Assembly: GCF_013248995.1 (NCBI RefSeq)
Contig: NZ_JABRPK010000003.1
Coordinates: 53,422-117,421 of the forward strand
Direction of reading: 5' to 3'
Length of the DNA: 64,000 nucleotides
Source: Frigoribacterium sp. VKM Ac-2836
GTDB taxonomy: Bacteria; Actinomycetota; Actinomycetes; Actinomycetales; Microbacteriaceae
The translations under genes were made by a program, and so were the position numbers. Shown in pieces: positions 1 through 62,273 of this stretch (the first letter of the stretch is position 1; the number at the start of each line of letters is the position of its first letter). A model generated the notes under the pieces. The model did not search any database. It was not told the DNA's origin and saw nothing but the letters and a program-made list of their open reading frames with translations.

Positions 1-212
1 GATCGCGCCCCCCGTTCGTACGGTGACCGTCCTGAGCGTGGTGGCCGCGCCTCCGGTGGTTTCGACCGCGACGCCCGTCCGGCCCGCAGCTACGACCGCA
101 GCGATCGTCCGGCCCGTGACGACCGCTCGCGTGACGATCGCGCCCCCCGTTCGTACGGTGACCGTCCTGAGCGTGGTGGCCGCGCCTCCGGTGGTTTCGA
201 CCGCGACGCCCG
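1..212 (+). repeat. Direct repeat in helicase N-terminal arm (77 bp identical, 135-bp spacing)
   Basis: Bases 1-77 recur without a mismatch at 136-212, a period of 135 bp (45 codons). The left copy is cut by the window edge, so more copies may lie upstream. Each copy encodes an Arg/Gly/Asp-rich block and contains one CCGCGCCTCC (45-54 and 180-189). Third-position identity implies recent duplication rather than selection on the peptide alone. Confidence 0.9.
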
Positions 213-1530
213 CCCCGCGCGTGACGCCGGTCGCGGCAGCGACTTCTACCCCAAGCGCGATTCGGCCACGCACTACTCGCCCGAGGACGACGTCAAGCTC
301 GAGAAGCTCAAGGCCGAGGTCGTCACCGCGGCCGACGTCGAGGGTGTGAGCTTCGGCGACCTGGGCCTCGGCGACAACATCGAGCGTCAGCTGGCCTCGA
401 TGGGTGCCGCGGCTCCGTTCGCGATCCAGGCCGCGACGATCCCCGACGTGCTCGCCGGTCGTGACGTGCTCGGTCGCGGCCGCACGGGCTCGGGCAAGAC
501 GATCGCCTTCGGCGCCCCCCTGGTCGAGAAGCTGATGGAGAACAACGGCGCCAAGAACCGCAAGATGGGCCGCAAGCCCCGTGCGCTGATCCTCGCCCCG
601 ACCCGTGAGCTCGCGATGCAGATCGACCGCACCGTGCAGCCCATCGCCCGCTCGGTCGGCCTGTTCACCACGCAGGTCTACGGCGGCGTGCCCCAGCAGC
701 GTCAGGTCGGTGCGCTCAACCGCGGCGTCGACATCGTCATCGGCACCCCCGGTCGCATCGAGGACCTCATCGACCAGGGTCGTCTCGACCTGAGCGAGGT
801 CGTCGTGACCGTGCTCGACGAGGCCGACCACATGTGCGACCTCGGGTTCCTCGAGCCGGTGCAGCGCATCATCCGCGAGACCGCGACGGTCCGCCCCGAC
901 GGCGCCCGCGCCCAGAAGCTGCTCTTCAGCGCGACCCTCGACAAGGGCGTGGCGAAGCTGGTCGACGAGTTCCTGGTCGACCCGGCCGTGCACGAGGTCG
1001 CCGGTGAGGACCAGGCCAGCGCCACGATCGACCACCGCGTGCTGCTGATCGAGCAGCGCGACAAGACCGCGGTCATCGAGCAGCTCGCCTCGGGTGGCGG
1101 AAAGACCCTGGTCTTCGCCCGCACCCGCGCCTTCGCCGAGCAGCTCGCCGACCAGCTCGAGGACGCCGGCATCCGCTCGACGAGCCTGCACGGCGACCTG
1201 AACCAGGCCCGCCGCACGCGTAACCTGCAACTGCTCACCAGCGGCAAGGTCAACGTGCTCGTCGCGACCGACGTCGCCGCCCGCGGCATCCACGTCGACG
1301 ACATCGAGCTCGTCGTCCAGGCCGACATGCCCGACGAGTACAAGACCTACATGCACCGCTCCGGCCGCACCGGCCGTGCGGGCAAGGAGGGCACCGTCGT
1401 CACGCTCATCACGCGTCAGCGCCGCCGTCGCATGGAAGAACTCCTCGACCGCGCCGAGATCGACGCCGAGATGATCGAGGCCCGCTCGGGCGATCGTCTG
1501 ATCGACGAGCTCGCGGGCGTGCAGGCGTAG
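1..1530 (+). CDS. DEAD-box ATP-dependent RNA helicase (5' end outside window)
   Basis: The reading frame is open from base 1, so the gene begins upstream of the window; 509 residues are visible. The first ~85 residues form a disordered Arg/Gly/Asp/Ser-rich arm containing two copies of a block starting DRAPRSYGDRPERGG. A GTG at 346 could be called as a start, but the arm is in frame and typical of actinobacterial cold-shock helicases. The core then shows, in order: Q-motif (PFAIQ), Walker A (GRTGSGKT), PTRELA, TPGR, DEAD (around 817-828), SAT, ARGIH and HRSGRTGR, covering both RecA-like domains. Family role: ATP-driven RNA duplex unwinding in ribosome assembly or RNA decay. No C-terminal arm follows the core. 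The gene ends in a long palindrome at 1573-1632. Confidence 0.93.
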   Translation, partial: DRAPRSYGDRPERGGRASGGFDRDARPARSYDRSDRPARDDRSRDDRAPRSYGDRPERGGRASGGFDRDARPARDAGRGSDFYPKRDSATHYSPEDDVKLEKLKAEVVTAADVEGVSFGDLGLGDNIERQLASMGAAAPFAIQAATIPDVLAGRDVLGRGRTGSGKTIAFGAPLVEKLMENNGAKNRKMGRKPRALILAPTRELAMQIDRTVQPIARSVGLFTTQVYGGVPQQRQVGALNRGVDIVIGTPGRIEDLIDQGRLDLSEVVVTVLDEADHMCDLGFLEPVQRIIRETATVRPDGARAQKLLFSATLDKGVAKLVDEFLVDPAVHEVAGEDQASATIDHRVLLIEQRDKTAVIEQLASGGGKTLVFARTRAFAEQLADQLEDAGIRSTSLHGDLNQARRTRNLQLLTSGKVNVLVATDVAARGIHVDDIELVVQADMPDEYKTYMHRSGRTGRAGKEGTVVTLITRQRRRRMEELLDRAEIDAEMIEARSGDRLIDELAGVQA

Positions 1531-1572
1531 CGAGCGCTCCTCGGGGGCGCGCACCGCCCCTCCTCGGCTCTC

Positions 1573-1632
1573 GAACCCCGTTTCGGACCATGAACCCCGC
1601 ATCTCGGGGGTTCATCGTTCGGAACGGGGTTC
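1573..1632. terminator. Long palindrome between convergent genes
   Basis: Two 26-bp arms (1573-1598 and 1607-1632) beginning GAACCCCGTT are complementary at all but three positions, with an 8-base loop. The element lies 43 bp after the helicase stop and 40 bp before the 3' end of the opposing DinB gene, so it could terminate both. There is no U-tract, which is common for high-GC terminators. Confidence 0.6.
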
Positions 1633-1671
1633 TTCGTCGTGTGGCCGACCGGGGGTCTCAGCGGCCGGTGG

Positions 1672-2178
1672 CTAGCGGCGGTCGAGCAGGCCGCGCACGT
1701 ACGAGGCCTGGCCCAGGTGCTGCACGCAGTCGTTCAAGATGCTGACGAGGCGGGCGCCGGCGGTGACCGGAGGGTCCCACGCCTCGTCGACCACGTCCTC
1801 GTACGAGGCACCGTCGAGGTCGCCGAGGTAGCCGCGCGTCCGCAGCGTGACGGCCTCGAGATAGCCGACCAGCAGCTCGGCATCGACCCGCACCGCGGCC
1901 ACGTCGGACGGCGACATGCCGTAGCCCATCTCGGCCGACGAGAACGGCAGCCCGAACGACTCGGCCCAGCCGTCGGCGGTCCAGACCTGGTCGGACGCCG
2001 CCAGGTCGGCGATCTGGACGTCCTGCCCGCGGGCGGTGTGCCAGACGAGCCAGGCGATCGTGTTCGCCTCGTCGTCAGGGCGCCAGGCGAGGTCGTCGAC
2101 CGAGAGGTCGGCGACCGCCCGCACGGCGATGGCGGGGAGGCGCGAGAAGGCTTCGACGAGGACGTCCGAGGGAGTCAT
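1672..2178 (-). CDS. DinB superfamily protein (mycothiol transferase type)
   Basis: 168 residues, the usual size for a DinB four-helix bundle. Histidines at about 47 (WLVWHTARGQD) and 154 (QHLGQASYVRG) fit the metal-binding positions of the family; WHTARGQD followed by a C-terminal HLGQASYVRG helix is characteristic of actinobacterial DUF664-like members. Family knowledge: metal-dependent thiol (often mycothiol) transferases used in detoxification; the substrate cannot be inferred here. The start is supported by TAGGGT at 2185-2190 placed exactly 6 nt upstream on the minus strand, with no ribosome binding site, so a leaderless transcript is likely. It lies downstream of the MarR gene on the same strand with a 64-bp gap, so co-transcription is possible but the internal promoter argues for separate control. 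Confidence 0.85.
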   Translation of the reverse strand: MTPSDVLVEAFSRLPAIAVRAVADLSVDDLAWRPDDEANTIAWLVWHTARGQDVQIADLAASDQVWTADGWAESFGLPFSSAEMGYGMSPSDVAAVRVDAELLVGYLEAVTLRTRGYLGDLDGASYEDVVDEAWDPPVTAGARLVSILNDCVQHLGQASYVRGLLDRR

Positions 2179-2184
2179 CGACCC

Positions 2185-2190
2185 ACCCTA
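2185..2190 (-). promoter_or_regulatory. Leaderless -10 box of DinB gene
   Basis: TAGGGT on the minus strand, 6 nt before the ATG at 2178. It matches the -10/start geometry seen at many genes in this window. Confidence 0.5.
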
Positions 2191-2242
2191 CGACCGGCCA
2201 CGCGCGCCGGTCCGGGCCGGAGGCGGCCGACGCGGCGGCTGC

Positions 2243-2755
2243 TCAGGCGTCGATGGCGCCGACGGCGTCGTCGCCTGCCGCGGCGCGCGTGAGCGAGTCG
2301 CCGATCGCGCGCATCGCCGCCGCGAGGAAGTCGAGGTGGTTGGGGTCGACGGCGTCGCGGAACGCCCTGCGGTAGAAGTCGTGGATCTGGTCGATCGCCT
2401 CGCGGCCGGCCGGGGCGAGTTCGAGCAACACGCTCCGTCGGTCGGACGGGTGCGGCTGGCGCGTGATGTACCCGCCGCTCTCGAGCCGGTCGACCAGGCT
2501 CGTGGTCGCCCCGGTCGACAGCTCGAGGAACTCGGCGGCGCGCTTGGGGGTCGTGTCGTGATCGCTGGCGATGAACGTCAGGCAGCGCAGGTCCGTGGTG
2601 CCCATGCCGAAGTGGTCGGCGACGACCTTCTGCACGCGCTCGCCCTGTCGTTGCAGGGACGCGTAGGCCGTGAGGACGAGGGTCACGTCGAGCTGTCCCT
2701 CGTCGTCGAGGGGCGGTGGGGAGCCGGCGGGCGGCTGGGGCGAGACGTCGGACAT
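2243..2755 (-). CDS. MarR family transcriptional regulator
   Basis: 170 residues. An N-terminal helix region (about 25-60) is followed by a winged helix-turn-helix at about 60-115, with the family-typical recognition helix TGATTSLVDRLESGGYITR and the wing basic patch HPSDRRSVLLEL, then a C-terminal dimer helix. The N-terminal 20 residues are Pro-rich and unstructured. Role by family: dimeric repressor or antirepressor responding to small phenolic or drug-like ligands. It probably regulates itself: the 380-bp upstream gap holds a palindrome, TTCGAGCTTCGAA (2860-2872). No obvious efflux pump or target gene is adjacent, so its regulon is unknown. Confidence 0.88.
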   Translation of the reverse strand: MSDVSPQPPAGSPPPLDDEGQLDVTLVLTAYASLQRQGERVQKVVADHFGMGTTDLRCLTFIASDHDTTPKRAAEFLELSTGATTSLVDRLESGGYITRQPHPSDRRSVLLELAPAGREAIDQIHDFYRRAFRDAVDPNHLDFLAAAMRAIGDSLTRAAAGDDAVGAIDA

Positions 2756-2859
2756 GATGGGCTCTCTGCTGGCGGGGCGGCGACGCGAGGACGGAGCGAA
2801 GACGAGGAGGCGCGGCGACGGGCGCCACGGACCCTCAGGTTACCTCGTCGAGTGAGTTG

Positions 2860-2872
2860 TTCGAGCTTCGAA
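2860..2872. promoter_or_regulatory. Candidate MarR operator palindrome
   Basis: TTCGA-GCT-TCGAA, a perfect inverted repeat 105 bp upstream of the MarR start. MarR dimers bind such short palindromes near their own promoters. Assigned only by position and symmetry. Confidence 0.35.
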
Positions 2873-3054
2873 TCACCTGCCGACCCGTTGCGAACGTGTA
2901 CCGATCGTCCTTGCAGCATCCTCTTTCGGCGAGTATCTTGAAACGCGAGCAACTTGACAGCGGTAACGTCATCCGAGCTGCTCGACCCGCTGCCGGTGGT
3001 TCTCCCCCTGTGACCGGCGGCGTCCCCGCGCGGCCCGTGGCCTCATGCGGACCC

Positions 3055-3118
3055 GGTGGTGGCCGACCGTGAATCGGCCACCACCTCTCCGGAGCGGAGG
3101 CGGCCCGACCGCCTCCGC
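3055..3118 (-). terminator. Tandem hairpins after the siderophore operon
   Basis: Directly downstream of the last operon gene (stop at 3136) are two hairpins. 3094-3118 has a 10-bp perfect G/C stem (GCGGAGGCGG with its complement) and a 5-base loop. 3055-3085 has a 12-bp perfect stem (GGTGGTGGCCGA) and a 7-base loop. Neither has a U-tract. Tandem stems of this kind are plausible terminators in high-GC genomes. Confidence 0.6.
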
Positions 3119-3135
3119 CTCGAGGCCCGACGGGG

Positions 3136-5589
3136 TCACCGCGCGATCGGGTTGGCCAGCGTTCCGGCGTAGATCAGTGACGACGACTGCGCCGCCAGGT
3201 CGACCATCTGCCGGGTGTCGCGCAGCTGCAGCCGGTTGAGGCACGAGTGGTCGAAGCGCGCCGCCCGCAGGTCGACCGATCCCGGCAGGTCCGGGTGCTC
3301 GTCGGCGTGCCGGTCGACGCACTCGGCCACGAGCGCCCAGAACCGGGCCGCGGGCAGCACGCCGTCGCCGTCGAGGATCGCGGCCAGGTGCCGGAACACC
3401 CCGTCGAAGACGTCGGTGAACACCGCCAGCGCCTTCTCGCGGTCGTCGACCGGGTGCACGGTCCGTCGCACGGCCTCGGGGACCTCGCGAGGGGCGACGA
3501 CGACGATCTCCTCGCCGATGTCCTTCATGAACGCCGCGGTCGGCACGCAGCCCTCGAGCACGAGGATGACGTTCTCGCCGTGCGGCATGAACGCCAGGTC
3601 GTGCGCCCGCAGGCAATGCACGACCGGCCGCAGGTACGCGTGCAGGTACGACCGCAGCCAGTCCTCGGCCGACACCCCGGAGGCCTTCACGAGCGCGGAC
3701 GCGAGCGCGTCGCCGGCACCGTCCCGGTGCAGCAACGCTGCCATCGTGGCCAGGCGCTCGCCCGGCCCGACCAGCGGCACCGGGCTCTCGCGCCAGAGGG
3801 CCGCGATCATCTTGCGGTGCGGCGACGGGGTCGTGGTCCGGTGGTGGACGTCACCGGTGTAGCCGACGGAGGCGCGCTCCCTCAGGACCCGGAACCGCGC
3901 CTCCTGCAGGGTCGCGTCGGTGCGCACGAGGTCGTGCACCCAGTCGTTGATGGCGGGCGTCGGCCTCATGTAGGCCGGCGAGAGACCGCGGACGAAGCCC
4001 ATGTTCTGGATCGCCAGCGCCGTCTTGACGTAGTGCCGGTCGGGACGGCTGCGGTTCGCGAAGGTGCGGATCGACTGCTGCGCCTGGTACGTGTCGTCGC
4101 CCTCGCCGAGCAGGACGAGGTCGCGCCGCGCGACGTCCGGCGCGAACGAGATCGAGATGCGATGCTGCCACTGCCACGGGTGGACCGGCAGGTAGTGAAA
4201 CGCCGCCGGGTCGAGGCCCTTCGCGGTGAGGGTCGCGTCGAACCGGGCGAGGGTCGCGGGGCCCAGCTCGGCCTGCCACAGCGATCGTTCGTCGAGCCCG
4301 GCGCCGAGCGCGAGGTGCGTGACCCACCGGCGGGCCGCCAGCCAGACCAGTCGCACGGGCGCCGCGGCCTCGGGCGCGAAGGCGTGGAACTCGTCGAGTC
4401 CGAGACCGATGCGTCCGTTGTTCGCGACGAAGCCCGGGTGGCCCTCGGTCATGGCGGACTCGACCGTCTGGAAGTCCGCGGTCGTCAGATGCTCGGCCGT
4501 CGGCCCTCCGCGGTGACGTTTGTAGGCGGCGCTCGCCAGGGTCGACGAGACCTCCTCGAGGTAGGTGGCGAGCAACGACTCGGGGATGCCGAGCAGGTCG
4601 TCCAGCTCGACGATCAACGCGAGGGCGTCCAGCGGTTCGGGGTGGCCGTCGACCGTGCGCACGACCGTCGTCTCGTCGATCGCCCAGTGCTCGAGGGCCT
4701 GCCGGCGGGCGTCGAAGCGGTAGTCGACGTGGTGGCCGTCGTGGTCGAGCGAGACGCGCCAGGGGGCGGCGGTCGGGGCGGCGTCGTGGTGCGCTGCGTC
4801 GTCGACCGCTGTGTCGTGGTGCGCTGTGTCGGCGACCGCTGTGTCGTGGTGCGCTGCGTCGGCGACCGCGGCGCCGTCGGCCACCGGGGCGATCAGCCGC
4901 TCGTGGGCGAATTCGCTCAGAGCCTTGGCCACGAGGTGCCGGTGTGCCCACTCCATCGGCCCGGGTGCGAGGTGCGCCGCCGCCCGGTCGTGCCGCGTCA
5001 GCACCGAGAGCCGTGCCGTCTTGTCGGGCAGCCCGACCTCGCCGAGCGCGCGGAACCCCACCTCGTCGTTCTTCACCGCGATGCGGTCGTTGGCCACGTC
5101 GGGCTCGACGACGATCCGCCGGGCCTGCTCGATCTCGAAGACGAAGTCGACGACGCTCGCCATCACCGCGCTGGTCAGCCCGTGCACCCGCTGCCCCCGG
5201 GGCGGGGCGACGAGCAGGTGCAGGCCCACGTCGCCCGGCTCGGCGTCGTGGACCTCGGTCAGCAGCACCTCGGCGGGGTCGTAGGTCTCGACGAAGAACG
5301 TCGGCTCGCCGTCGACCCGGCCGAGCCAGGCCTGCTGGTGCGGGTCGGCCTCGATGGTGGCGAGGTAGGCGCGCACCTCGTCGGTGCTCAGGCCCGCCAT
5401 CTGCCAGGCGGCCGACGCCGGATGCGCCAGCCAACGGCGCAGACAGACGGCATAGGGGTCGGCGGCGAACGGCTCGATCGTGACCAGGCCGCAGGAGGCG
5501 CGGCGCGAGAACGCGACGCCCGTCGCCCGGTCGTCGGTGCGGGACGGGGCTTCGGGCGCGAGCGCCTCGATGTCGTGGGTGGTGCTCAT
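3136..5589 (-). CDS. Fused siderophore acyltransferase / IucA-IucC (NIS) synthetase
   Basis: 817 residues in two domains. Residues about 25-235 are a GNAT acyltransferase of the AlcB/RhbD/DesC type, which acylates N-hydroxy-diamine. Residues about 330-800 are an IucA/IucC-family synthetase (DesD-like): HPGFVANNGRIG, the ATP-binding stretch HPWQWQH, the MRPTPAINDW region, KTALAIQNMGF and MPHGENVILVLEG are visible. In Streptomyces these activities (DesC and DesD) are separate proteins. Here they are joined by a His-rich linker (about 240-268) made of three near-identical AHHDTAVADT-like repeats. The ATG overlaps the stop of the hydroxylase gene (ATGA), indicating translational coupling. Predicted product: a desferrioxamine-like hydroxamate. 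Iron control by DtxR/IdeR is inferred from the box at 8895. Confidence 0.9.
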   Translation of the reverse strand: MSTTHDIEALAPEAPSRTDDRATGVAFSRRASCGLVTIEPFAADPYAVCLRRWLAHPASAAWQMAGLSTDEVRAYLATIEADPHQQAWLGRVDGEPTFFVETYDPAEVLLTEVHDAEPGDVGLHLLVAPPRGQRVHGLTSAVMASVVDFVFEIEQARRIVVEPDVANDRIAVKNDEVGFRALGEVGLPDKTARLSVLTRHDRAAAHLAPGPMEWAHRHLVAKALSEFAHERLIAPVADGAAVADAAHHDTAVADTAHHDTAVDDAAHHDAAPTAAPWRVSLDHDGHHVDYRFDARRQALEHWAIDETTVVRTVDGHPEPLDALALIVELDDLLGIPESLLATYLEEVSSTLASAAYKRHRGGPTAEHLTTADFQTVESAMTEGHPGFVANNGRIGLGLDEFHAFAPEAAAPVRLVWLAARRWVTHLALGAGLDERSLWQAELGPATLARFDATLTAKGLDPAAFHYLPVHPWQWQHRISISFAPDVARRDLVLLGEGDDTYQAQQSIRTFANRSRPDRHYVKTALAIQNMGFVRGLSPAYMRPTPAINDWVHDLVRTDATLQEARFRVLRERASVGYTGDVHHRTTTPSPHRKMIAALWRESPVPLVGPGERLATMAALLHRDGAGDALASALVKASGVSAEDWLRSYLHAYLRPVVHCLRAHDLAFMPHGENVILVLEGCVPTAAFMKDIGEEIVVVAPREVPEAVRRTVHPVDDREKALAVFTDVFDGVFRHLAAILDGDGVLPAARFWALVAECVDRHADEHPDLPGSVDLRAARFDHSCLNRLQLRDTRQMVDLAAQSSSLIYAGTLANPIAR
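4781..4872 (-). repeat. Three ~30-bp tandem repeats encoding a His-rich linker
   Basis: Three consecutive copies of a ~30-bp unit containing GTCGTGGTGCGCTG lie inside the fusion gene, between its two domains. Each encodes AHHD(T/A)AV.D. They add pairs of histidines, so local metal binding is conceivable, but copy number may simply drift in a linker. Confidence 0.8.
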
Positions 5590-7166
5590 CGGGTGACCCG
5601 CGCCTCCTCGGTCGGTGTCGGTTCGGGCGGGCGGCCGCCGGGCCGAACCCGACCGTCGTCCGGGTCCGGGGCGTGCACATCCCGACCGTCGCGGGGCGAC
5701 ACGCCGCTCACTTCCGCTCTGGAGGGGGCCTGCGCATCGGACGTGTCGCGAATTGCGCACCCGGGAGGAGGGGCGGAGGCGGCAGGGGCGGCGGCGGCGG
5801 AGGCGGTGGGGCGGCCGAAGGTCTGGAAGGCGATGCGGCGTTCGAGGGGGTAGGGCTCGCGGCCGGTGATCGAGGCGATGATGCTCGAGTTCCGCCACGC
5901 GCCGAAGCCGAGGTCGGGGGCGGTGAGGCCGTGGGTGTGCTCCTCGGCGTTCTGGACGAACAGCCGGCCCCGGCCGCCGTCGATCGAGTAGTCGCGCGCC
6001 ACGGCCAGGCGGCCGAGGTCGTCGCGGTCGACCCGGTCGCCGAGCGCGTCGAGGAAAGTCGGCACCCGGGCGGCGTAACCCGTCGCCACGACGAGCGCCT
6101 CGGTGCGGCGGGTGGCCGTGGTGTCGAGCTGCGCGTGCCGCAGCGTGAGCTCGATCTGCTCGTCGTCGTCGATCCACCGGGCGTCGACGAGCTCGGTCTC
6201 GGTGAGGAGGGTCGAGTCGACGGGCCCGTCGACGCTGAGCCGGTAGAGCGTGTCGTACACGTCGTCGACGAGGTCGCCGCTGATGCCCTTGTGGAGGCTG
6301 CGCTGCTCGCGGCCCAACCGGTCGCGGGTCTCGCGCGGCAGCGAGTGGAAGTGGTCGGTGTACTCGGGGCTGGTCAGTTCGAGGGTGAGCTTCGTGTACT
6401 CCATCGGGAAGAACCGCGGCGACCGGGTGATCCAGTCGAGCCGGTGCCCCGGGCGGGCCCCGACGCGGGTCGTGTCGAGCAGGTCGCGGTAGATCTCGGC
6501 GGCCGACTGCCCGCTGCCGACGATCGTCACCGAGTCGGCGGCCCGCAGGCGATCGCGGGCCGCCAGGTAGTCGGCGCTGTGCACGACGGGACCGCCCGGG
6601 CCGCGCCGGTCGGCGAGACGCCGGAGCGGTTCGGGCAGGCGCGGCTCGGTGCCCACCCCCAGCACGACGTGACGGGCGTGCCAGGTCTCTGCGGCTCCGT
6701 CGGTGCCGCGTCGCGAGGTCACGAGGTACGTGCCGTCGGGCTGCTCCTCGACGCTGGTGACTCGGCGACCCCAGCGCAGCGTGTCGAGCTGGTCGGCGAC
6801 CCACCGGCAGTAGGCGTCGTACTCGGCCCGCAGGGGGGAGAAGTCCTCGCGGATGTAGAACGGGTAGAGCCGGCCCGTCGTCTTCAGCCAGTTCAGGAAG
6901 CCGAAGCGCGAGGTCGGGTCGGCCATCGTCACGAGGTCCGCCAGGAACGGCACCTGGATCGTCGCGCCCTCGATCATCATGCCGGGGTGCCAGCAGAAGC
7001 CGTCGGCCTGGTCGAGGAACACCGCGTCGACGTCGTCGAGCGGGTCGGTGAGGGCGGCCAGGCCGAGGTTGAACGGGCCGATGCCGACGCCGACGAGGTC
7101 GTGGAGGCGCGGGGTGGCGGCGGTCGCGGTGGCGGCTGCGGGTGCCGCGGTCGTGGCGGCGGTCAT
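5586..7166 (-). CDS. L-lysine N6-monooxygenase (siderophore hydroxylase)
   Basis: 526 residues, FAD/NADPH-dependent N-hydroxylating monooxygenase of the IucD/PvdA/DesB family. Visible: the FAD motif GVGIGPFNLGLAAL near the N-terminus, the NADPH motif GSGQSAAEIY, the substrate-loop sequence LTSPEYTDHFHSLP, and LVVATGYAAR near the C-terminus. Likely reaction: N-hydroxylation of cadaverine or lysine, with cadaverine favoured by the adjacent decarboxylase. The family-conserved part ends near residue 452. The last ~75 residues are low-complexity and are encoded by dispersed-repeat DNA: the GTCGCGAATTGCGCAC element at 5745-5760 (read as CAIRD) and the decamer at 5598-5607 (read as EEARVTR). Both ends overlap neighbouring genes by 4 bp, so translation is coupled throughout the operon. 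Confidence 0.92.
   Translation of the reverse strand: MTAATTAAPAAATATAATPRLHDLVGVGIGPFNLGLAALTDPLDDVDAVFLDQADGFCWHPGMMIEGATIQVPFLADLVTMADPTSRFGFLNWLKTTGRLYPFYIREDFSPLRAEYDAYCRWVADQLDTLRWGRRVTSVEEQPDGTYLVTSRRGTDGAAETWHARHVVLGVGTEPRLPEPLRRLADRRGPGGPVVHSADYLAARDRLRAADSVTIVGSGQSAAEIYRDLLDTTRVGARPGHRLDWITRSPRFFPMEYTKLTLELTSPEYTDHFHSLPRETRDRLGREQRSLHKGISGDLVDDVYDTLYRLSVDGPVDSTLLTETELVDARWIDDDEQIELTLRHAQLDTTATRRTEALVVATGYAARVPTFLDALGDRVDRDDLGRLAVARDYSIDGGRGRLFVQNAEEHTHGLTAPDLGFGAWRNSSIIASITGREPYPLERRIAFQTFGRPTASAAAAPAASAPPPGCAIRDTSDAQAPSRAEVSGVSPRDGRDVHAPDPDDGRVRPGGRPPEPTPTEEARVTR
5745..5760 (-). repeat. GCAATTCGCGAC-type dispersed repeat inside coding sequence
   Basis: GTCGCGAATTGCGCAC here is the reverse complement of the element found at 40790, 45547 and 53327 in non-coding DNA. 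It is translated as part of the extra C-terminal tail of the hydroxylase. Confidence 0.7.
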
Positions 7167-8725
7167 CGGGCGGCCTCCGTCGCGACGGCGACCAGGGTGG
7201 CGGCGTCGTTCTCGAGCAGCGCCCACGAGGAGGCGCGGACCAGCTCGAGCACGCCCCTCACGTCGTCGAGACCCGCGTCGGGGTTCAGCAGCGTCAGCTT
7301 GAGGCACGGGCGCCCGTCGACCACGGTCTTCGCGACGATCGCGCGCCCCGACTCGAAGAGCACGCGTCGCACGAGCGGCACGAGCCGGTCGGCGGTCGCG
7401 TCGTCGACCTCCGCCGGCTGCCAGCGGAACAGCGCCGTGCTGAGCTGCGTCTCGGCGAGCAGGACGAACTCGTCGTCGTCGCGCAGCAGGTCGTGGGCGT
7501 CGGCAGCGAGGTCGATCACCCGGTCGACCAACTCGCCGACGCCATCGGCGCCGAGGGCGCGCAGCGTCGCCCAGAGCTTGAGCGCGTCGAACCGTCGGGT
7601 GGTCTGCAGCGACTTCGACACCTGGTTCGGCTCGGGGTCGGCGAGCGGGTTGAGGTAGTCGGCGTGCCAGGCGACCGGGTCGAGGTCGTGACCGTCGCGC
7701 ACGACCAGCGCGCTCGACGACACCGGCTGGAAGAACGTCTTGTGGAAGTCGACGGTGACGGACCGCGCACGCTCGATGCCGTCGAGCAGGTGTCGACGTG
7801 TGGGCGAGACGAGCAACCCGCCACCGTAGGCGGCGTCGACGTGCAGCCAGACGCCCGTGCGGTCGCAGACCTCGGCGATCGCGGTGAGCGGGTCGAGGCA
7901 CCCGCGGTCGGTCGTGCCGGCGGTCGCCACCACCGCGATCGGCAGATGTCCGGCCTGACCGAGGGCGTCCACCGTGACGGCGAGGGCCTCGGGCAGCATC
8001 CGGCCGGCGGCGTCGGTGGGCACGGTCACGACGGCGTCCTCGCCGAGCCCGAGCAGTCGGGCCGACTTCTGCACGCTGAAGTGGCTCTCGGCGGTGGCGA
8101 TCACGACCATGCGGCCCAGCAGGTCGTGCCGCGCCGTGGCGTGCGGGACGGGACGGTGACCGGGGGTGGCCGTGTTCCGCAGCCGCGCCTCCTCGGCCCT
8201 CGCCTCGTCGCGGGCGCGCGTCGTGGCGTGCTCACGGGCGAGCAGCAGGGCGTGCAGGTTGGACTGCGTGCCGCCCGAGGTGAAGACGCCGTCGCGGGTG
8301 GCCGGGTCGAAGCCGATGCGCCCGGCGGTCCAGTCGACGAGCCGACGTTCGATCAGGGTGCCGACGGTCGACTGGTCGTAGGTGTCGACCGACGGGTTCA
8401 CCGCGGCGAGCACGGCCTCGGCGGCGACGGCGGGCAGGGCGACCGGGCAGTTGAGATGCGACTGGTAGGCGGGGTCGTGGAACCAGACGGCGTTCGCCGT
8501 GAACAGCTCGTCGACCTCGCGCAAGGCGTCGTCGGTGCCGGCGCCCGGGGCGTCGAGGTCGACGGCGTCGACGAGGTGCTGCAGGTGGGCGCGACCCTCG
8601 CCCGAGAAGGGTTGGCGCGTGGTGCGGAAGCGGTCGGCGATCCGGGCGACGGCGGCGCCGGTGAGGCGCTCGTACTCGTCGGCGGTCGCGGTGGTGAGCA
8701 GTGCGGACGCGTGTTGTTCGGACAC
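7163..8725 (-). CDS. PLP-dependent L-lysine decarboxylase (siderophore type)
   Basis: 520 residues, group II amino acid decarboxylase of the DesA/DDC family. Visible: FTSGGTQSNLHAL (PLP phosphate-binding region), HFSVQKSARLLGL, HVDAAYGGG (the Asp that pairs with the PLP ring nitrogen) and the Schiff-base lysine in DFHKTFFQP. Role: lysine to cadaverine, the first step of desferrioxamine-type siderophores. It is first in a three-gene operon and overlaps the hydroxylase by 4 bp. The GTG start is preceded by AAGGAG at good spacing. A ~165-nt leader with 9-bp repeats separates it from the iron box. One decamer is translated as EEARLR near residue 180 in a loop between conserved blocks. Confidence 0.92.
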   Translation of the reverse strand: MSEQHASALLTTATADEYERLTGAAVARIADRFRTTRQPFSGEGRAHLQHLVDAVDLDAPGAGTDDALREVDELFTANAVWFHDPAYQSHLNCPVALPAVAAEAVLAAVNPSVDTYDQSTVGTLIERRLVDWTAGRIGFDPATRDGVFTSGGTQSNLHALLLAREHATTRARDEARAEEARLRNTATPGHRPVPHATARHDLLGRMVVIATAESHFSVQKSARLLGLGEDAVVTVPTDAAGRMLPEALAVTVDALGQAGHLPIAVVATAGTTDRGCLDPLTAIAEVCDRTGVWLHVDAAYGGGLLVSPTRRHLLDGIERARSVTVDFHKTFFQPVSSSALVVRDGHDLDPVAWHADYLNPLADPEPNQVSKSLQTTRRFDALKLWATLRALGADGVGELVDRVIDLAADAHDLLRDDDEFVLLAETQLSTALFRWQPAEVDDATADRLVPLVRRVLFESGRAIVAKTVVDGRPCLKLTLLNPDAGLDDVRGVLELVRASSWALLENDAATLVAVATEAAR

Positions 8726-10844: not shown

Positions 10845-10880
10845 GGAGGCGCGGGTCAGGCCCGCAGGACGCGCGCCTCC
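10845..10880 (-). terminator. Decamer-pair hairpin across the alpha-glucosidase stop codon
   Basis: GGAGGCGCG (10845-10853) and CGCGCCTCC (10872-10880) form a 9-bp stem with an internal GGG/CCC pairing. It overlaps the last codons and stop (10856-10858) of the glycosidase gene. Confidence 0.4.
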
Positions 10881-49690: not shown

Positions 49691-52405
<2,715 letters not shown>

Positions 52406-53326: not shown

Positions 53327-53580
53327 GTGTGCAATTCGCGACGACCGGCAGGTGATCGGGGCCGTGGGGCGAAGGTGAGCGGCGTGGCGCGCGGCGGTTG
53401 TCGGGTTCGGCACGCGAGGTGAGGAGGCGCGGGTCGGGTTCGGCACGCGAGGTGGGGAGGCGCGGGTCGGGTTCGGCACGCGGGGTGAGGAGGTGAGGAG
53501 GCGCGGGTTCGGCACGCGAGGTGAGGAGACGAGGAGGCGCGGGTCCGGTTCGGCACCCAAGCCCGGGAGGCGCAGCCCAG
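53327..53580 (+). repeat. Composite repeat with ~33-bp tandem units (second large copy)
   Basis: GTGTGCAATTCGCGAC (53327-53342), GAGCGGCGTG, then GTCGGGTTCGGCACGC at 53400, 53433 and 53466 (33-bp period), followed by more degenerate units to 53580. Exact decamers at 53423, 53456, 53497 and 53533. Same order of parts as the element at 45547, about 7.8 kb away. The 384-bp gap holds nothing else except a terminator hairpin. Confidence 0.9.
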
Positions 53581-54515: not shown

Positions 54516-56279
54516 ATGGGAGAGCTCTTCGAGGGATACGCGACCGTCACGGGTGCCGCGACCCGACGGTCCGAGCCGCGCGGGGCCCGCGCGTCGGCCG
54601 CCGCGTGGGACGAGATGTTCGAGCGCGACGGCACGCCCCGTCGGGCGTACCACGAGATCCACGCGACCCTCGAGGGCATGACGCAGGACGACCTGCGGGG
54701 CCGCACGGCGGCGTTGGCCGACTCGTACCTGGCGCAGGGCGTCACCTTCGACTTCGCCGGCGAAGAGCGGCCGTTCCCGCTCGACGCCGTGCCGCGCGTC
54801 GTCGAGCACGCCGAATGGACCACCGTCGAACGAGGCGTGAAACAGCGCGTGAAGGCGCTCGAGGCGTTCCTGGCCGACGTCTACGGCCCGCAGACCGCCA
54901 TCGCCGACGGGGTCATCCCGGCGAGTCTCATCACGAGCTCGAGCCATTTCCACCGGCAGGCGAGCGGTATCGACCCGGCGAACGGCGTGCGCATCCAGGT
55001 GAGCGGCATCGACCTGGTCCGCGACGAGGCCGGCGCCTGGCGCGTGCTCGAGGACAACGTGCGGGTGCCGAGCGGCGTCAGCTACGTCATCTCGAACCGG
55101 CGCGTCATGGCGCAGACGCTGCCCGAGTTGTTCGTCTCGATGCGGGTGCGCCCGGTCGGCGACTACCCGAACCGGCTGCTGGCGGCCTTGAAGAAGAGCG
55201 CGCCGTCGGGCGTCGACGAGCCGACCGTCGTCGTGCTGACCCCCGGAGTCTTCAACTCCGCCTACTACGAGCACACCCTGCTGGCCCGCCTGATGGGCGT
55301 CGAGCTGGTCGAGGGCCGCGACCTCTACTGCTCGGGCGGCCGTGTCTTCATGCGGACCACCGGCGGTCCCGAACGCGTCGACGTGATCTACCGTCGCGTC
55401 GACGACGAGTTCCTCGACCCGCTGCAGTTCCGGGCCGATTCGGTGCTCGGTTCCCCCGGCCTGCTGATGGCCGCTCGTCTCGGCACGGTGACGATCGCGA
55501 ACGCGGTGGGCAACGGCGTCGCCGACGACAAGCTCGTCTACACGTACCTGCCCGAGCTGATCCGCTACTACCTGGGCGAGGAGGCCCTGCTGCCGAACGT
55601 GCCCACCTGGCGGCTCGAGGACCCCGGCGCCCTCGACGAGGTGCTCGACCGGCTCGACGAACTCGTCGTGAAGCCCGTCGACGGTTCGGGCGGCAAGGGT
55701 CTCGTCATCGGCCCGGCCGCGAGCCGACGCGAGCTCGACGAGCTGCGCACGCAGCTGCGGCGTGACCCCCGGGGATGGATCGCGCAGCCGGTCGTGCAGC
55801 TCAGCACGATCCCGACCCTGGTGGACGACGGTCTGCGCGCGAGGCACGCCGACCTGCGGCCGTTCGCCGTGCACGACGGCGACGACGTGTGGGTGCTGCC
55901 CGGCGGACTCACCCGGGTCGCGCTGCCCGAGGGTCAGCTCGTCGTCAACAGCAGCCAGGGCGGCGGCTCGAAGGACACCTGGATCGTCGGCGGCGACGTC
56001 AACGCCTGGGCCGGTCACGACGTGAGCGCGCTGATCGCCGAGCAGACGACGCCGACCCTGTCGATCCCGGTCGTCACCCCCGAGCAGGTCGCCGAGGCCG
56101 CGGCCGCCGCGGCCGACCACAGCCCCGACCACGCGCCCCAGGACGACCCCCGCAACGACCAGCAGGCGCAACAGCAACAAGCGAAGGAGGCGCGGGCGGG
56201 GGCACGAAGCCGGCCCGCGCCTCCTGCGTCCCCGGTCCGCGACCACGGAGCCACACCGACCGAAGGGCCATCATGCTGA
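54516..56279 (+). CDS. Circularly permuted ATP-grasp type 2 protein
   Basis: 587 residues. Conserved sequences of the DUF404/DUF407 ATP-grasp family: DVYGPQTAIADGVIPASLI, GIDLVRDEAGAWRVLEDNVRVPSGVSYVISNRRVM, TPGVFNSAYYEHTLLARLMGVELVEGRDLY, ANAVGNGVADDKLVYTYLPELIRYYLGEE and VVKPVDGSGGKGLVIGP. Family proposals: an ATP-dependent carboxylate-amine ligase making a short peptide, always with alpha-E and transglutaminase partners. The last ~60 residues are low complexity (polyGln/Ala, then KEARAGARSRPAPPAS), encoded by an inverted decamer pair. It overlaps the alpha-E gene by 7 bp. Confidence 0.92.
   Translation: MGELFEGYATVTGAATRRSEPRGARASAAAWDEMFERDGTPRRAYHEIHATLEGMTQDDLRGRTAALADSYLAQGVTFDFAGEERPFPLDAVPRVVEHAEWTTVERGVKQRVKALEAFLADVYGPQTAIADGVIPASLITSSSHFHRQASGIDPANGVRIQVSGIDLVRDEAGAWRVLEDNVRVPSGVSYVISNRRVMAQTLPELFVSMRVRPVGDYPNRLLAALKKSAPSGVDEPTVVVLTPGVFNSAYYEHTLLARLMGVELVEGRDLYCSGGRVFMRTTGGPERVDVIYRRVDDEFLDPLQFRADSVLGSPGLLMAARLGTVTIANAVGNGVADDKLVYTYLPELIRYYLGEEALLPNVPTWRLEDPGALDEVLDRLDELVVKPVDGSGGKGLVIGPAASRRELDELRTQLRRDPRGWIAQPVVQLSTIPTLVDDGLRARHADLRPFAVHDGDDVWVLPGGLTRVALPEGQLVVNSSQGGGSKDTWIVGGDVNAWAGHDVSALIAEQTTPTLSIPVVTPEQVAEAAAAAADHSPDHAPQDDPRNDQQAQQQQAKEARAGARSRPAPPASPVRDHGATPTEGPSC
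56185..56225 (+). terminator. Decamer-pair hairpin inside the ATP-grasp 3' coding end
   Basis: AGGAGGCGCGGGC (56185-56197) and its exact complement (56213-56225) make a 13-bp perfect stem with a 15-base loop, about 50 bp before the alpha-E start. It is translated as the ATP-grasp tail, so ribosomes would open it; it may couple translation to continued transcription. Confidence 0.5.
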
Positions 56280-57199: not shown

Positions 57200-58041
57200 G
57201 CCGGCTGCGCATCCGGCACGTGACCGGTTTCTCGTACCAGGGCGAGGCGGTCGCGAGCTACAACGAGGCGCGCATGCTGCCGGCGCACACCGAGGGTCAG
57301 TTCGTGCTCTCGTCGCACCTGCGCATCGAACCGGTCGCCGCCTCGCACGAGTACGTGGACTACTGGGGCACGAGGGTGTCGTCGTTCGAGGTGCTGCTGC
57401 CGCACCGGCAGCTCTCGCTGACCGCGACCTCGCTCGTCGAGGTGCGGCCGCAGGCGCACCCGTCCGAGACGATCTCGTGGGCCGACCTCGCGGCGATCGC
57501 GGGGGCCAGCACGTCGTTCGTCGAGCACCTCGAGCAGACGCCCCTCACCGCGCCTCCCGCCGACCTGGCCGCGGTCGGCACCGAGGCACGAGCGACGAAC
57601 GTCGACCCGTGCGCCGCGGCGATGGCGATCTGCGAGACGGTCGGAGGCGCGGTGCGGTACCTGCCGGGCGTCACGAACGTCAAGACCACGGCCGCCGAGT
57701 CGTGGTCCGCACGGGCCGGGGTCTGCCAGGACATCGCCCACGTCACGGTCGGCGCCCTGCGTGCGGCGGGCATCCCGGCGCGCTACGTCAGCGGTTATCT
57801 GCACCCCAAGCCCTCGGCCGAGCTGCGCGAGACCGTCACGGGCGAGTCGCACGCCTGGGTCGAGTTCTTCTGCGGCACCTGGCACGGCTACGACCCCACC
57901 AACCTGATCGACATCGGCGAACGGCACGTGGTGGTCGGCCAGGGCCGCGACTACCGCGACGTACCGCCGCTGCGCGGGGTGTACGCCGGGTCGTCGAACA
58001 GCGAGCTCTTCGTCACCGTCGAGATCACCCGCGAGGCCTAG
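57196..58041 (+). CDS. Transglutaminase-like cysteine peptidase family protein
   Basis: 281 residues. An N-terminal beta-sandwich domain (RLRIRHVTGFSYQGEAVASYNEARMLP) and a transglutaminase core with catalytic Cys in ARAGVCQDIAHV, His in ESHAWVEF and Asp in GYDPTN: the triad is complete. It is cytosolic (no signal peptide). Third gene of the ATP-grasp / alpha-E / transglutaminase operon, so it probably cleaves or attaches the peptide product. One decamer is read as VGGAVRYL, between the substrate-side helix and the loop before the active site. A perfect palindrome follows the gene. Confidence 0.92.
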   Translation: MSRLRIRHVTGFSYQGEAVASYNEARMLPAHTEGQFVLSSHLRIEPVAASHEYVDYWGTRVSSFEVLLPHRQLSLTATSLVEVRPQAHPSETISWADLAAIAGASTSFVEHLEQTPLTAPPADLAAVGTEARATNVDPCAAAMAICETVGGAVRYLPGVTNVKTTAAESWSARAGVCQDIAHVTVGALRAAGIPARYVSGYLHPKPSAELRETVTGESHAWVEFFCGTWHGYDPTNLIDIGERHVVVGQGRDYRDVPPLRGVYAGSSNSELFVTVEITREA

Positions 58042-58110: not shown

Positions 58111-58137
58111 CCACAGCGTGGGACGAGGAGGCGCGGG

Positions 58138-59092: not shown

Positions 59093-59125
59093 AGGCGTCC
59101 TCCGGCGAGGGGGACTGCGGCGGCG

Positions 59126-60166
59126 TCAGGCGCTGTGTGTGAGCGGGGCCGACTCTTGCTCGGTGACGGCGGCGTCGGTCGGGCCGGCCAGGGCGGCGGC
59201 GGCCGACGCGGGCGTCCCCGTCGGAACTCGGCGCGAGGTCAAGAAGTCGAGGCGGGCGGCCTCGCGGGCGGACTCACGATCGAGTTCGGCCTGGCGGGCG
59301 GCGGCCCGGGCGGCCGACAGGGTGCGCGCGTTCTCCCGGGCGCGGGCGGCGGCGGCCGAGGAGGCGCGGCGTGCGCTCGCCCCCGTGGCCCGAGCGGCGA
59401 CGACGGCACCGGCCGCGGTGGCCCGGCTGCCGTGACGCACGCCGTCCCAGGTCGAGCGGGCGGCCGGTCGGGTGCGCGTCGCGACGGTGCCACCGGTCGT
59501 ACGGAACCAGGCGGCCACGACCGGCGTGGTGCGTCGGACCCACGCGACCACGGCCTGTGCGGCTCGGCGGGTGGCTCGGGCCGTGGCCCGACCGGCCCGG
59601 GCCAGGGCGTCACCGGTGGCGCGTGCGGCGTCCCCGACGCGGACGGCGGCGGACGAGAGGACGGGACGCACGCGGTCGGCGAGGCTCGGCCCCGGCGGTG
59701 TCGGTTCGAGCGCGCTCGGGGAAGTCGGCGCGGTCTCGATCGGCGTGCCCGTGGCGGGGGCGACGGCCGGAGTCGGCGCTGCGGCGACCACGGGGGCGGC
59801 GGCGAGGACGGCGGCGGCGGGCCGTCCTGCCGGGAGGTCCCGCGCCTCCTGAGGTGTCGCTCGAACGGTGACCGAGGCCGTCTCACGGACGACCTCGTGC
59901 TCGGGGGGGCGCGCCGGCTCGTCGCGCGGCAGGGCGCCGAGCACCCGGTCGGCCAGCCCGACGAGAGCGAGGGCGACGCCACCGACGGCGAGGGCGGCAC
60001 CGAGCAACCAGATGGCGATGGTGACGAAATCGAGGTCGCCGAGGGGCATGAAGCCGCCCGCGAAGAGGCCCAAGCTGACCAGGCGGAAGGTGGCCGCCAG
60101 GACGAGCGCCGCGCCCGAGACGAACATCGCCAATGCGACCCAGCCCGTGACTGCTGCCTTGCCCAT
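59126..60166 (-). CDS. Two-TM protein with long Ala/Arg-rich helical tail (uncharacterised)
   Basis: 346 residues from an ATG with GGGAGG 6 nt upstream; open frame beyond it is not coding. Two membrane segments at ~5-35 (VTGWVALAMFVSGAALVLAATF) and ~45-75 (FVTIAIWLLGAALAVGGVALALVGLA). Then a Pro/Ala linker, and from ~165 to 320 a very basic helix-forming stretch (ARATGDALARAGRATARATRRAAQ ... ARARENARTLSAARAAARQ). I recognise no family; the tail resembles membrane-tethered apolipoprotein- or histone-like repeats. Decamers are read as EARD and RASS. Confidence 0.65.
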   Translation of the reverse strand: MGKAAVTGWVALAMFVSGAALVLAATFRLVSLGLFAGGFMPLGDLDFVTIAIWLLGAALAVGGVALALVGLADRVLGALPRDEPARPPEHEVVRETASVTVRATPQEARDLPAGRPAAAVLAAAPVVAAAPTPAVAPATGTPIETAPTSPSALEPTPPGPSLADRVRPVLSSAAVRVGDAARATGDALARAGRATARATRRAAQAVVAWVRRTTPVVAAWFRTTGGTVATRTRPAARSTWDGVRHGSRATAAGAVVAARATGASARRASSAAAARARENARTLSAARAAARQAELDRESAREAARLDFLTSRRVPTGTPASAAAALAGPTDAAVTEQESAPLTHSA

Positions 60167-61169: not shown

Positions 61170-61186
61170 CCGAAGGCTCACGCTTG

Positions 61187-61192
61187 TAATCT
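61187..61192 (+). promoter_or_regulatory. Leaderless -10 box of YdcF-like gene
   Basis: TAATCT, 6-nt gap, ATG at 61199; this is the closest match to TATAAT among the leaderless set. Confidence 0.55.
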
Positions 61193-61198
61193 CGGGGC

Positions 61199-62233
61199 AT
61201 GACCGTGATCTCGGCCGGCATCGCCGTCGTCTTCGTGCTCCTCTTCGCCGTCTCGCGCCGGCGCGACGCCCGCCGGTTCCGCAACGGGGTATTCCTGTTG
61301 ACGGCCGGTGGGTTCGGGCTCGTCGCTCTGTCGGACGTCCTGGTCACCGCGTTCCCGCCGCTCGTCTTCGTGTTCGTCCTCGCCGGGGTCCTGGTCCCGG
61401 TGCTGGTGCTCGCGCTCGCGGTCTTCGCGATCGCGAACGGGGTCACGATGCTGAGATCGGAGGGGCGCAGCCTGGGCAACCTGCTGTCGTTGCTCGTCGG
61501 CATCGCCCTGATCGGCGTGCCCGTGGTCGTGGTGTTCCTGGTCGAGGCGGGCCGACGCTCGGACGTCGCCGCCCTGCAGGACGTCACCCTCGGCCTCGGC
61601 GTCGTGGTCGTCTTCGTCACCGGCTACGCCGCCCTGACCTTCGCCGCGTTCACCCTGTGGTCGCTCGTCTACGCACGACCCCGGGTGCGCCCGCAACCCG
61701 ACGCCCTGATCGTGCTCGGCTCCGGGCTGATCCGTGGTGAGGTGCCGCCCCTCCTGCGCAGCAGGCTCGACCGGGCGCTGGCGATCTACCGGTCGACCCC
61801 CGAGGGAGCGCGTCGGCCCGTGCTCGTGCCCTCGGGTGGGCAGGGCGCCGACGAGCCGCGGCCCGAGGGCCAGGCGATGGCCGAGTACCTGGTCGCCCAG
61901 GGCGCCGACCCTGCCGACGTGCTGCCCGAGACCGAGTCGCGGTCCACCCGCGAGAACCTCGTGCTGTCGGGGCGGGTGCTCGCCGACGCCGGACGCACCG
62001 GCTCGACCCTCGTCGTCACCAACAACTACCACGTGCTGCGAGCGGCCCTGCTGGCTCGCGACACCGGCAGCAGCGCCGACGTCGTCGGGTCGCCCACCGC
62101 CGCGTACTACGTGCCGAGCGCGTTCTTGCGGGAGTGGGTGGCCGTCATGGTCGAACACAAGCTGCTGAACCTGCTGCTGGTCGCCCCGTTCGTCGTGCTG
62201 CTCGCCTCCGTGCTGGTGTACGCGCGGTCCTGA
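61199..62233 (+). CDS. YdcF/ElyC/SanA family membrane protein
   Basis: 344 residues. Four N-terminal membrane helices (to ~150), then the DUF218 domain: PDALIVLGSGLIRGEVPPLLRSRLDRALAIY, VLVPSGGQGADEPRPEGQAMAEYLVAQGADPADVLPETESRSTRENLVLS and VVTNNYHVLRAALLAR; a last membrane helix near the C-terminus. The ESRST-EN motif is diagnostic. Family role: envelope precursor or cyclic-Enterobacterial-common-antigen-type functions in E. coli; its actinobacterial role is unknown. Confidence 0.9.
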   Translation: MTVISAGIAVVFVLLFAVSRRRDARRFRNGVFLLTAGGFGLVALSDVLVTAFPPLVFVFVLAGVLVPVLVLALAVFAIANGVTMLRSEGRSLGNLLSLLVGIALIGVPVVVVFLVEAGRRSDVAALQDVTLGLGVVVVFVTGYAALTFAAFTLWSLVYARPRVRPQPDALIVLGSGLIRGEVPPLLRSRLDRALAIYRSTPEGARRPVLVPSGGQGADEPRPEGQAMAEYLVAQGADPADVLPETESRSTRENLVLSGRVLADAGRTGSTLVVTNNYHVLRAALLARDTGSSADVVGSPTAAYYVPSAFLREWVAVMVEHKLLNLLLVAPFVVLLASVLVYARS

Positions 62234-62273
62234 CCGGGTGGGCGGGGTGGCGGGCCGGCACCGCGCCTCCTCG

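Follow-up and report, generated by a model that had tools for sequence, protein, structure and literature searches.

A highly iterated decamer of Frigoribacterium as one dialect of a Microbacteriaceae-wide tag and a candidate DNA uptake sequence

DNA uptake sequences (DUS) and uptake signal sequences (USS) are the closest described counterparts of the element considered here, the decamer GGAGGCGCGG (the tag), which recurs throughout a 64-kb stretch of the genome of Frigoribacterium sp. VKM Ac-2836, a member of the Microbacteriaceae. This whole stretch is called the window, and the genome that contains it is G000 (3,273,901 bases). Neither DUS nor USS is known to show a replication-strand preference, and USS are flanked by A/T-rich stretches. 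Words of this class raise the binding, uptake and transformation of DNA, inverted pairs of them are reported to act as terminators behind genes, and in Neisseria the receptor is a minor pilin of the type IV pilus. Among other repeated words, the highly iterated palindrome 1 (HIP1) of cyanobacteria is a highly iterated palindromic octamer, Chi sites are over-represented, short, G-rich and enriched on the leading strand, and FtsK-orienting polar sequences (KOPS) and architecture-imparting sequences (AIMS) are strand-biased and rise toward the terminus. The available text on the Neisseriaceae gives 943 to 5918 exact copies of 10-mer DUS per genome, with a fixed core, dialects along the phylogeny and the possibility of two dialects in one genome (PMC3630211), and DUS are described as under-represented in accessory DNA in the accessible part of another report (PMC5031613). 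For Pasteurellaceae USS, dense genomic enrichment with dialects is described in a source whose available portion names Neisseriaceae and Pasteurellaceae as the sole families known to have such uptake discrimination (PMC12616744). According to the available portion of another source, no uptake sequence has been reported for mycobacteria (PMC10526031).

Compared with the Neisseriaceae DUS, the tag shows the same high copy number of a 10-mer, a fixed core, dialects that follow the phylogeny and, in the Frigoribacterium genome G015, two dialects side by side. On the other hand, its sequence and phylum are unrelated, a minor pilin route of the ComP type is not general among its bearers, and its role in uptake is putative. 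With the Pasteurellaceae USS it shares dense enrichment and dialects, but the sequences are unrelated and the tag has only a weak flank preference (A at position -1 in 64% of copies in 464 kb of G000). Like HIP1, the tag is a highly iterated short word, but it is non-palindromic and has family dialects. Chi sites are likewise over-represented, G-rich and short; their strand bias, and that of KOPS and AIMS, is not found in the tag, which in this respect behaves like DUS and USS. Neither the decamer nor its complement was found as a described motif among the literature titles listed in the open-licence literature, so that a report elsewhere is possible, and no uptake sequence in Microbacterium was found in that literature; the papers that it gave on uptake sequences and Actinobacteria concern, by title, Neisseria, pathogens, pili or Mycobacterium.

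Abundance and placement of the tag

The window holds 58 copies of GGAGGCGCGG, against a mean of 1.83 and a largest count of 5 in 100 dinucleotide shuffles. The tag is the commonest 10-mer of the window (GC 0.70-0.75), with 0.8 copies expected from a third-order Markov model. In the original prediction about 55 exact copies had been counted; all 55 positions are right on their strands, but the list was incomplete by three copies. The copies are as follows, where sisters are the five sister regions compared below.

45-54, minus: exact in 5/5 sisters; inside called gene 1-1530 (DEAD-box helicase)
180-189, minus: repeats the context of 45-54; indel in 4/5 sisters
2806-2815, plus: intergenic
3895-3904, minus: coding
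5494-5503, plus: coding
5598-5607, minus: coding
7103-7112, plus: coding; absent from the earlier list
7229-7238, plus: coding; absent from the earlier list
8183-8192, minus: coding
9300-9309, plus: coding
9461-9470, minus: coding
9588-9597, plus: coding; exact in 0/5 sisters
10053-10062, minus: coding
10495-10504, plus: coding
10845-10854, plus: intergenic
11245-11254, minus: coding
12623-12632, plus: intergenic
13429-13438, minus: coding
14501-14510, minus: coding, gene end
15970-15979, plus: coding
17313-17322, minus: coding
17596-17605, plus: coding
19995-20004, plus: intergenic
21837-21846, minus: coding
22454-22463, plus: intergenic, direct cluster
22477-22486, plus: intergenic, direct cluster
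22499-22508, plus: intergenic, direct cluster
27728-27737, plus: coding; substituted in 4/5 sisters
28808-28817, plus: coding
28996-29005, plus: left arm of an inverted pair; predicted RNA hairpin of -40.6 kcal/mol, z -7.84
29018-29027, minus: right arm of the pair with 28996; between convergent genes
35991-36000, plus: coding, gene end
39485-39494, minus: coding
40737-40746, minus: intergenic; unaligned in 5/5 sisters
41278-41287, plus: coding
42131-42140, minus: coding
42468-42477, plus: coding; exact in 0/4 aligned sisters
44213-44222, plus: intergenic
44763-44772, minus: intergenic
45639-45648, plus: 33-bp tandem array
45672-45681, plus: 33-bp tandem array
45705-45714, plus: 33-bp tandem array
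45738-45747, plus: 33-bp tandem array
46848-46857, minus: intergenic
51027-51036, plus: coding, antisense in the phosphoenolpyruvate (PEP) carboxylase gene
52803-52812, plus: coding
53423-53432, plus: second array
53456-53465, plus: second array
53497-53506, plus: second array
53533-53542, plus: second array
56186-56195, plus: left arm of an inverted pair within the 3' end of a called gene; predicted hairpin of -39.2 kcal/mol, z -5.50
56215-56224, minus: right arm of the pair with 56186
57548-57557, minus: coding; absent from the earlier list
57643-57652, plus: coding
58127-58136, plus: intergenic
59360-59369, plus: coding; exact in 1/5 sisters
59840-59849, minus: coding
62261-62270, minus: intergenic

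The whole genome G000 contains 1354 copies (684 forward and 670 reverse), against 52 of the reversed decamer. This corresponds to 0.41 per kb, and the window, at 0.91 per kb, is richer than the genome mean partly because it contains two tandem arrays. All 16 Frigoribacterium genomes, G000 included, carry 842-1725 copies, with 41-148 of the reversed control; this control differs from the tag in its dinucleotides, a fault from which the Markov tests in sampled stretches are free. In 464 kb of G000, made up of the window and 400 kb of contig C1, 232 exact copies were found where Markov models of order 3 and order 5 expect 4.7 and 16.2. The comparison with a Markov model that had been proposed as a check gave, in these 464 kb, counts far above expectation. 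Chance, GC content and codon bias are ruled out as the cause by the shuffle, Markov and synonymous-shuffle counts. In the same 464 kb, variants with one mismatch were found at 0.2 to 3.1 times the expected number for positions 1-8 and at 2.5 to 13 times for positions 9-10, and the strict core of the tag is about GGAGGCGC.

In 20 named loci from a protein search, the 12 from Frigoribacterium carry 0.38-0.81 copies per kb and the eight others 0-0.05. When 249 family genomes were counted, more than 200 copies together with more than twice the control occurred only in five genomes of Frigoribacterium, four of the genus g32 (220-688) and one of the genus g55 (G069, 399). The copies are spaced with slight evenness at most (index of dispersion 0.77 in 20 samples of the single-contig genome G077, with a coefficient of variation of the gaps of 0.89; 0.98 in Frigoribacterium).

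Placement was studied in the same 464 kb with gene calls from a codon-usage caller written for this analysis. Tags are denser outside genes, at 3.13 per kb noncoding and 0.62 per kb coding in the window and at 1.38 and 0.31 in C1, and the intergenic density over both together is 2.38 per kb in convergent, 1.85 in tandem and 0.70 in divergent regions. The 143 coding copies lie 67 sense and 76 antisense, most often in the last (22) and the first (19) tenth of gene length. Synonymous shuffling of 420 genes gave 12 expected coding copies and 21 at most in 100 shuffles, and codon usage is thus not the explanation. Peptide sites able to encode the tag do so in 36-58% of cases in five of the six frames and in 5% in the sixth. 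The statement that coding copies never give RRR-type readings was nearly right, since one of the 143 reads RRRG, but only 19 peptide sites permit that frame. In 8 of 418 genes (stretches L021-L040 and the window), the tag lies antisense exactly one base past a TGA stop (TGAC and then CCGCGCCTCC). As far as tested, a near-Markov count, codon-pair bias as the sole cause and absence from intergenic DNA, which the original prediction had named as grounds for giving it up, were not what we found; the shuffle preserved the protein and the codon usage but left codon pairs free to change.

Neighbouring tags were surveyed in 864 kb (the window, the C1 stretch and 20 samples of the Frigoribacterium genome G006), which gave 398 gaps. 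Gaps of at most 60 bp number 60 against 11.4 expected, of which 21 are direct and 39 inverted, the G strand coming first in 26 of the latter and second in 13. Exactly 27 bp separates the tags in 14 of the 26 G-first pairs, which form 37-bp units with a variable inner 17 bp, and 12 of the 14 continue with TG. Genes contain 11 of the 39 inverted pairs; the remaining 28 are intergenic (12 convergent, 14 tandem and 2 divergent), and 22 of these 28 sit 11-65 nt past a stop codon. Folding of three stretches predicted strong hairpins for the pairs 28996/29018 and 56186/56215, whereas the 33-bp array folded no better than its shuffles (z 0.76). By predicted hairpin and position, the inverted pairs look like terminators. 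In the two arrays of about 33 bp (45639-45747 and 53423-53542) the tag adjoins the 14-mer GTGCCGAACCCGAC. This 14-mer occurs 9 times in the window, 12 times in G009 and 3 times in G011; 70 kb each of G005, G006 and G008 contained none, and 400 kb of C1 contained 2. The arrays perhaps represent a recent minisatellite that started from the tag.

The tag has no replication-strand or gene-orientation bias. In G006, a single contig from which 20 evenly spaced 20-kb samples and one 70-kb region were taken, GGAGGCGCGG lies 125/113 on the leading and lagging strands if the contig start is taken as the origin, and 129/109 at best over any assumed origin. The corresponding counts of GGATGCCG in G077 are 205/213 and 216/202. 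A DnaA-box scan gave no match, and the origins in both tests are assumed; with this proviso, the strand counts rule out a replication-polar motif.

Several further features were seen in the same DNA. The tags at 45 and 180 share near-identical 60-bp contexts, a repeat within called gene 1-1530. At 41550-44087 a single 845-aa frame fuses a major facilitator superfamily (MFS) transporter (28-375) with an NADH:flavin oxidoreductase-type domain (486-814), and a full-length match to it was found in 3 of 20 loci. The word GCGATCGC, which we take to be the HIP1 word, is moderately over-represented in L021-L040 (54 against 19.1 in 100 kb), where 12-mers of the palindrome ATCCGGTACGTACCGGAT also recur. 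An Rfam scan of the window gave no family at the gathering score.

Dialects across Microbacteriaceae

The tag of Frigoribacterium, GGAGGCGCGG, belongs to a set of dialects found across the family, each made of GGA[T/G]GC and letters specific to the genus. Scans for k-mers, over 100 kb of some genomes and 40 kb of others, placed such words at or near the top: CGGATGCCGC in the genera g2, g26 and g63, CGGATGCGC in g12 (and weakly in g22 and g27), CGGATGCCCGG in g8, CGGATGCCTCG in g79, GGATGCGC in g29 and CTGGAGGC[G/A]CG in g32. The words of g55 are GGAGGCG[G/C] in G069 and, with a weaker signal that base composition may partly explain, GGAGGCCG in G190. No clear dialect word emerged from these scans in g17, g45, g68 and g71. 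Motif-poor genera are g5, g45, g47, g50 and g51. Other repeats are abundant in g45 (GGCTACTCGA and CGTATCGAGA; L147-L148) and in g26 (GCTACTCGAT; L153-L154), and these are perhaps palindromic intergenic elements.

The word CGGATGCS was counted in 169 family genomes, and figures for genera were taken from the first-listed genome of each. Relative to the reversed control, its enrichment is 5-fold or more in 46 of the 85 genera and 3-fold or more in 64, with a median of 5.4, and the density of the tag reaches about one per kb in some genera. The small-genome genera g6, g16, g28, g61, g65 and g67 show 3- to 8-fold enrichment. Less than 2-fold enrichment was found in 13 of the 85 genera, including Frigoribacterium (1.47), which has GGAGGC instead. 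Outside the family, the first-listed genomes of 19 families gave a maximum of 2.13-fold and a median of 1.45; in the whole outside-family table, read by eye, the highest values were those of G378 (family f4, 5.0-fold) and G368 (family f7, 3.0-fold).

A midpoint-rooted tree of a single gene, PEP carboxylase, with 26 rows unites the 16 GGAGGC rows, those of Frigoribacterium and g32, in a single clade (support 100/100); it does not resolve how g32 and the two groups of Frigoribacterium branch from each other. Three genera of the tree, g27, g71 and g73, were classed as GGATGC from their CGGATGCS counts. The genus g55, which also has GGAGGC words, gave a PEP carboxylase match in 0 of 4 genomes; it is therefore not placeable on the tree, and a single origin of GGAGGC holds only for the sampled rows. 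We infer that GGAT is older than GGAG. Within Frigoribacterium, G015 contains GGAGGCGC and GGAGGCGG in about equal numbers (82 and 78), that is, two dialects in one genome, and no other genomes of the genus are as poor in GGAGGCGCGG as G015 and its clade mates (842-936). The variant GGAGGCGGTG, found in G015, was then met in the clade mates G003, G012 and G013 (338-385 copies; controls 36-49). The other 12 genomes of the genus hold 90-151 copies in 11 cases and 300 in G001.

Conservation among sister species

The window was compared with five sister regions at 88-93% identity; sites and sisters recur among the comparisons, which are not independent. Of the 165 aligned comparisons of coding copies (10 more were unaligned), 128 are exact, as are 53 of the 78 of noncoding copies (37 unaligned), and nearby control decamers, which were not composition-matched, gave 0.460 and 0.332. 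Thus the comparison of orthologous loci suggested in the original prediction finds the tags conserved. Third codon positions are kept in 529 of 553 cases inside copies and in 8845 of 10589 within 100 bp, and the difference is also seen for G/C third positions (458/474, 0.966, against 8443/9693, 0.871). Among non-exact aligned comparisons, 28 of the 37 coding ones are substitutions and 9 are indels. The indel fraction equals that of local controls at orthologous sites (0.055 and 0.045 coding, 0.167 and 0.161 noncoding).

Tag density was also sorted by sharing among the other five regions. DNA shared with 0-1 sisters holds 11 tags in 27.4 kb (0.40 per kb), DNA shared with 2-3 holds 29 in 21.6 kb (1.35 per kb), and DNA shared with 4-5 holds 251 in 311 kb (0.81 per kb). 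Two 20-kb stretches of G006, L073 and L074 (at about 2.16 and 2.34 Mb), have no tag at all. They contain 42 called genes; 7 of 8 proteins tested gave no Pfam match, and 1 of 10 tested matched PHROGs (a family of unknown function). These stretches are probably acquired, island-like DNA.

Candidate readings of the tag

In most features testable here, the tag appears to have the pattern of uptake sequences. We would give about half of our confidence to the reading that Microbacteriaceae bear a self-recognition tag working like DUS and USS, with GGAGGCGCGG as its Frigoribacterium dialect. This reading fits best among the four readings offered in the original prediction, on account of the dialects, the lack of strand bias, the inverted pairs and the com and tad genes. 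Slightly less confidently, we suggest that this may be a third independent origin of uptake self-tagging and, among Gram-positive families, the first, with hardware other than the Neisseria minor pilin, perhaps a Flp pilus or ComEA, and with dialects that gate the exchange of DNA among kin. Frigoribacterium would presumably be competent, and we infer that the uptake machinery may read the tag through some machinery protein. In such a mechanism, a surface DNA receptor (a pilus or the ComEA-ComEC route) would prefer tagged DNA during natural transformation, and tagged kin DNA would enter and recombine at a higher rate, with the result that tags are retained. New tags could arise mostly where point mutation costs little, at gene ends, in intergenic DNA and in permissive codons, and would spread by biased recombination (molecular drive). 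If the specificity of the receptor drifts, the tags of the genome would follow, giving a new dialect.

Candidate hardware is present. ComEC was found in 166 of 169 family genomes; in G000 a ComEA-like protein (SLBB and helix-hairpin-helix) lies immediately before it, and SLBB with helix-hairpin-helix also stands beside ComEC in all three other genomes examined with Pfam. At L040:9170-12203 a T2SSE ATPase is followed by a T2SSF protein, a DUF4244 protein of 84 aa that contains a G/XXXXEY-type site, a 129-aa frame and topA. The 129-aa frame has no Pfam match, and we take it to be TadE/G-like. As far as seen, the order of this tadA-tadB/C-flp-like locus agrees with that of tad-2 of Micrococcus luteus, for which the available text reports that a Flp pilus and comEA/comEC serve transformation and that two tad loci are required (PMC4322843). 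T2SSF proteins were found in 13 of 14 genomes tried, with weak single loci in g8, g12 and g27. Within the family by a taxonomy check, Rhodoluna lacicola and Aurantimicrobium photophilum are described as naturally transformable in the accessible part of one report (PMC11577799). PilM, the marker of the type IV pilus, occurs in 53 of 100 genomes, and its association with enrichment is weak (Mann-Whitney p 0.025). The type IV pilus as a general partner was accordingly set aside, as PilM tracks the tag weakly.

A number of observations weigh against an uptake sequence. ComEC is nearly universal and is also present in tagless genera, so it does not discriminate. The T2SSF search of G000 gave one tad-like and one PilC-like locus, against the two tad loci needed in Micrococcus luteus, and the tag-rich genome G018 had no T2SSF match. 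PilM is missing from the motif-rich genera g8, g12, g79 and g57, and CGGATGCS is enriched at least 5-fold in 17 of 38 genera without PilM and in 28 of 46 with it; a ComP-like pilin therefore cannot be the general receptor, and we do not file the tag as a DUS of the ComP type. No clear recombination signal was seen when identity was compared with distance from the tag (third positions 0.829-0.845 up to 800 bp and 0.808 beyond). The contrast between accessory and core DNA (0.40 and 0.81 per kb) has p 0.017 on related regions, and it forms no simple gradient, as DNA shared with 2-3 sisters is the richest. The small-genome genera g11, g14, g31 and g59 lack CGGATGCS enrichment, though small-genome relatives are transformable, and G001, which lies outside the G015 clade, is also rich in GGAGGCGGTG (300). 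Non-exact noncoding comparisons (n = 25) comprise 12 substitutions and 13 indels. Finally, a sequence-specific chromosomal protein of any kind could yield much of the tag pattern.

This last point leads to the main rival, a HIP1-like system in which a sequence-specific protein inside the cell (a nucleoid protein, a repair protein or a methyltransferase) would bind or modify the tag; occupancy of the tags would be selected genome-wide, and dialects would track changes in that protein. The strict core, the conservation and the absence of an orientation preference fit it equally well, HIP1 is itself highly iterated, and the non-discriminating ComEC and the lack of a rise in identity near tags are in its favour. 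Nevertheless, the tag is not a palindrome as HIP1 is, and dialects around a fixed core are the signature of uptake sequences in the available text on DUS (PMC3630211), so we regard this explanation as unlikely but deserving of serious attention. The Chi-like and architecture-imparting readings offered in the original prediction are both disfavoured because the strand bias is missing in G006 and G077. A Chi-like signal for a nuclease of the RecBCD, AddAB or AdnAB class would agree with a frequent, G-rich word that differs between genera; in view of the balanced strands of these two chromosomes, a tag longer than known Chi sites and the commonness of inverted pairs, we consider it improbable. 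A polar signal of the KOPS or AIMS type for chromosome segregation would explain a word over-represented genome-wide, but strand bias is absent under any assumed origin, and this possibility seems to us barely worth entertaining.

The features of pairs and arrays bear on two more explanations. If the tag were a mobile palindromic repeat, of the repetitive extragenic palindrome (REP) or miniature inverted-repeat transposable element (MITE) kind, single copies would be its remnants, and the 37-bp units (14 of 26 G-first pairs, 12 of 14 continuing TG), the two tandem arrays of about 33 bp and the 13 indels among 25 non-exact noncoding comparisons would agree with that. But the inner 17 bp differs between units and 28 of 37 coding changes are substitutions; as indels at orthologous sites are no commoner than in local controls, the mobile repeat that had also been proposed is disfavoured for single copies, and we hold it to be very improbable. 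An RNA-level signal, namely a transcription terminator or a Shine-Dalgarno-like element, would be in line with the predicted strong hairpins of inverted pairs after stop codons (2 of 3 folded stretches) and with the likeness of GGAGG to the ribosome-binding core. Most copies are single, however, and terminators account for the pairs only. The placement of a ribosome-binding site, sense and just upstream of start codons, is not seen, as the divergent regions are the poorest (0.70 per kb against 2.38 in convergent ones) and the coding copies are balanced (67 sense, 76 antisense). This orientation balance rules out a ribosome-binding site or a strand-specific RNA signal for single copies, and the RNA-level explanation as a whole appears highly unlikely to us.

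If the tag is an uptake sequence, sequence-gated transformation would have arisen a third time, in Actinomycetota. The old question whether uptake specificity is itself selected or merely follows from molecular drive would in that case become testable across many genera that differ in dialect. Should the tag not serve uptake, a family-wide, dialect-forming and strictly conserved word would still need a protein that reads it.

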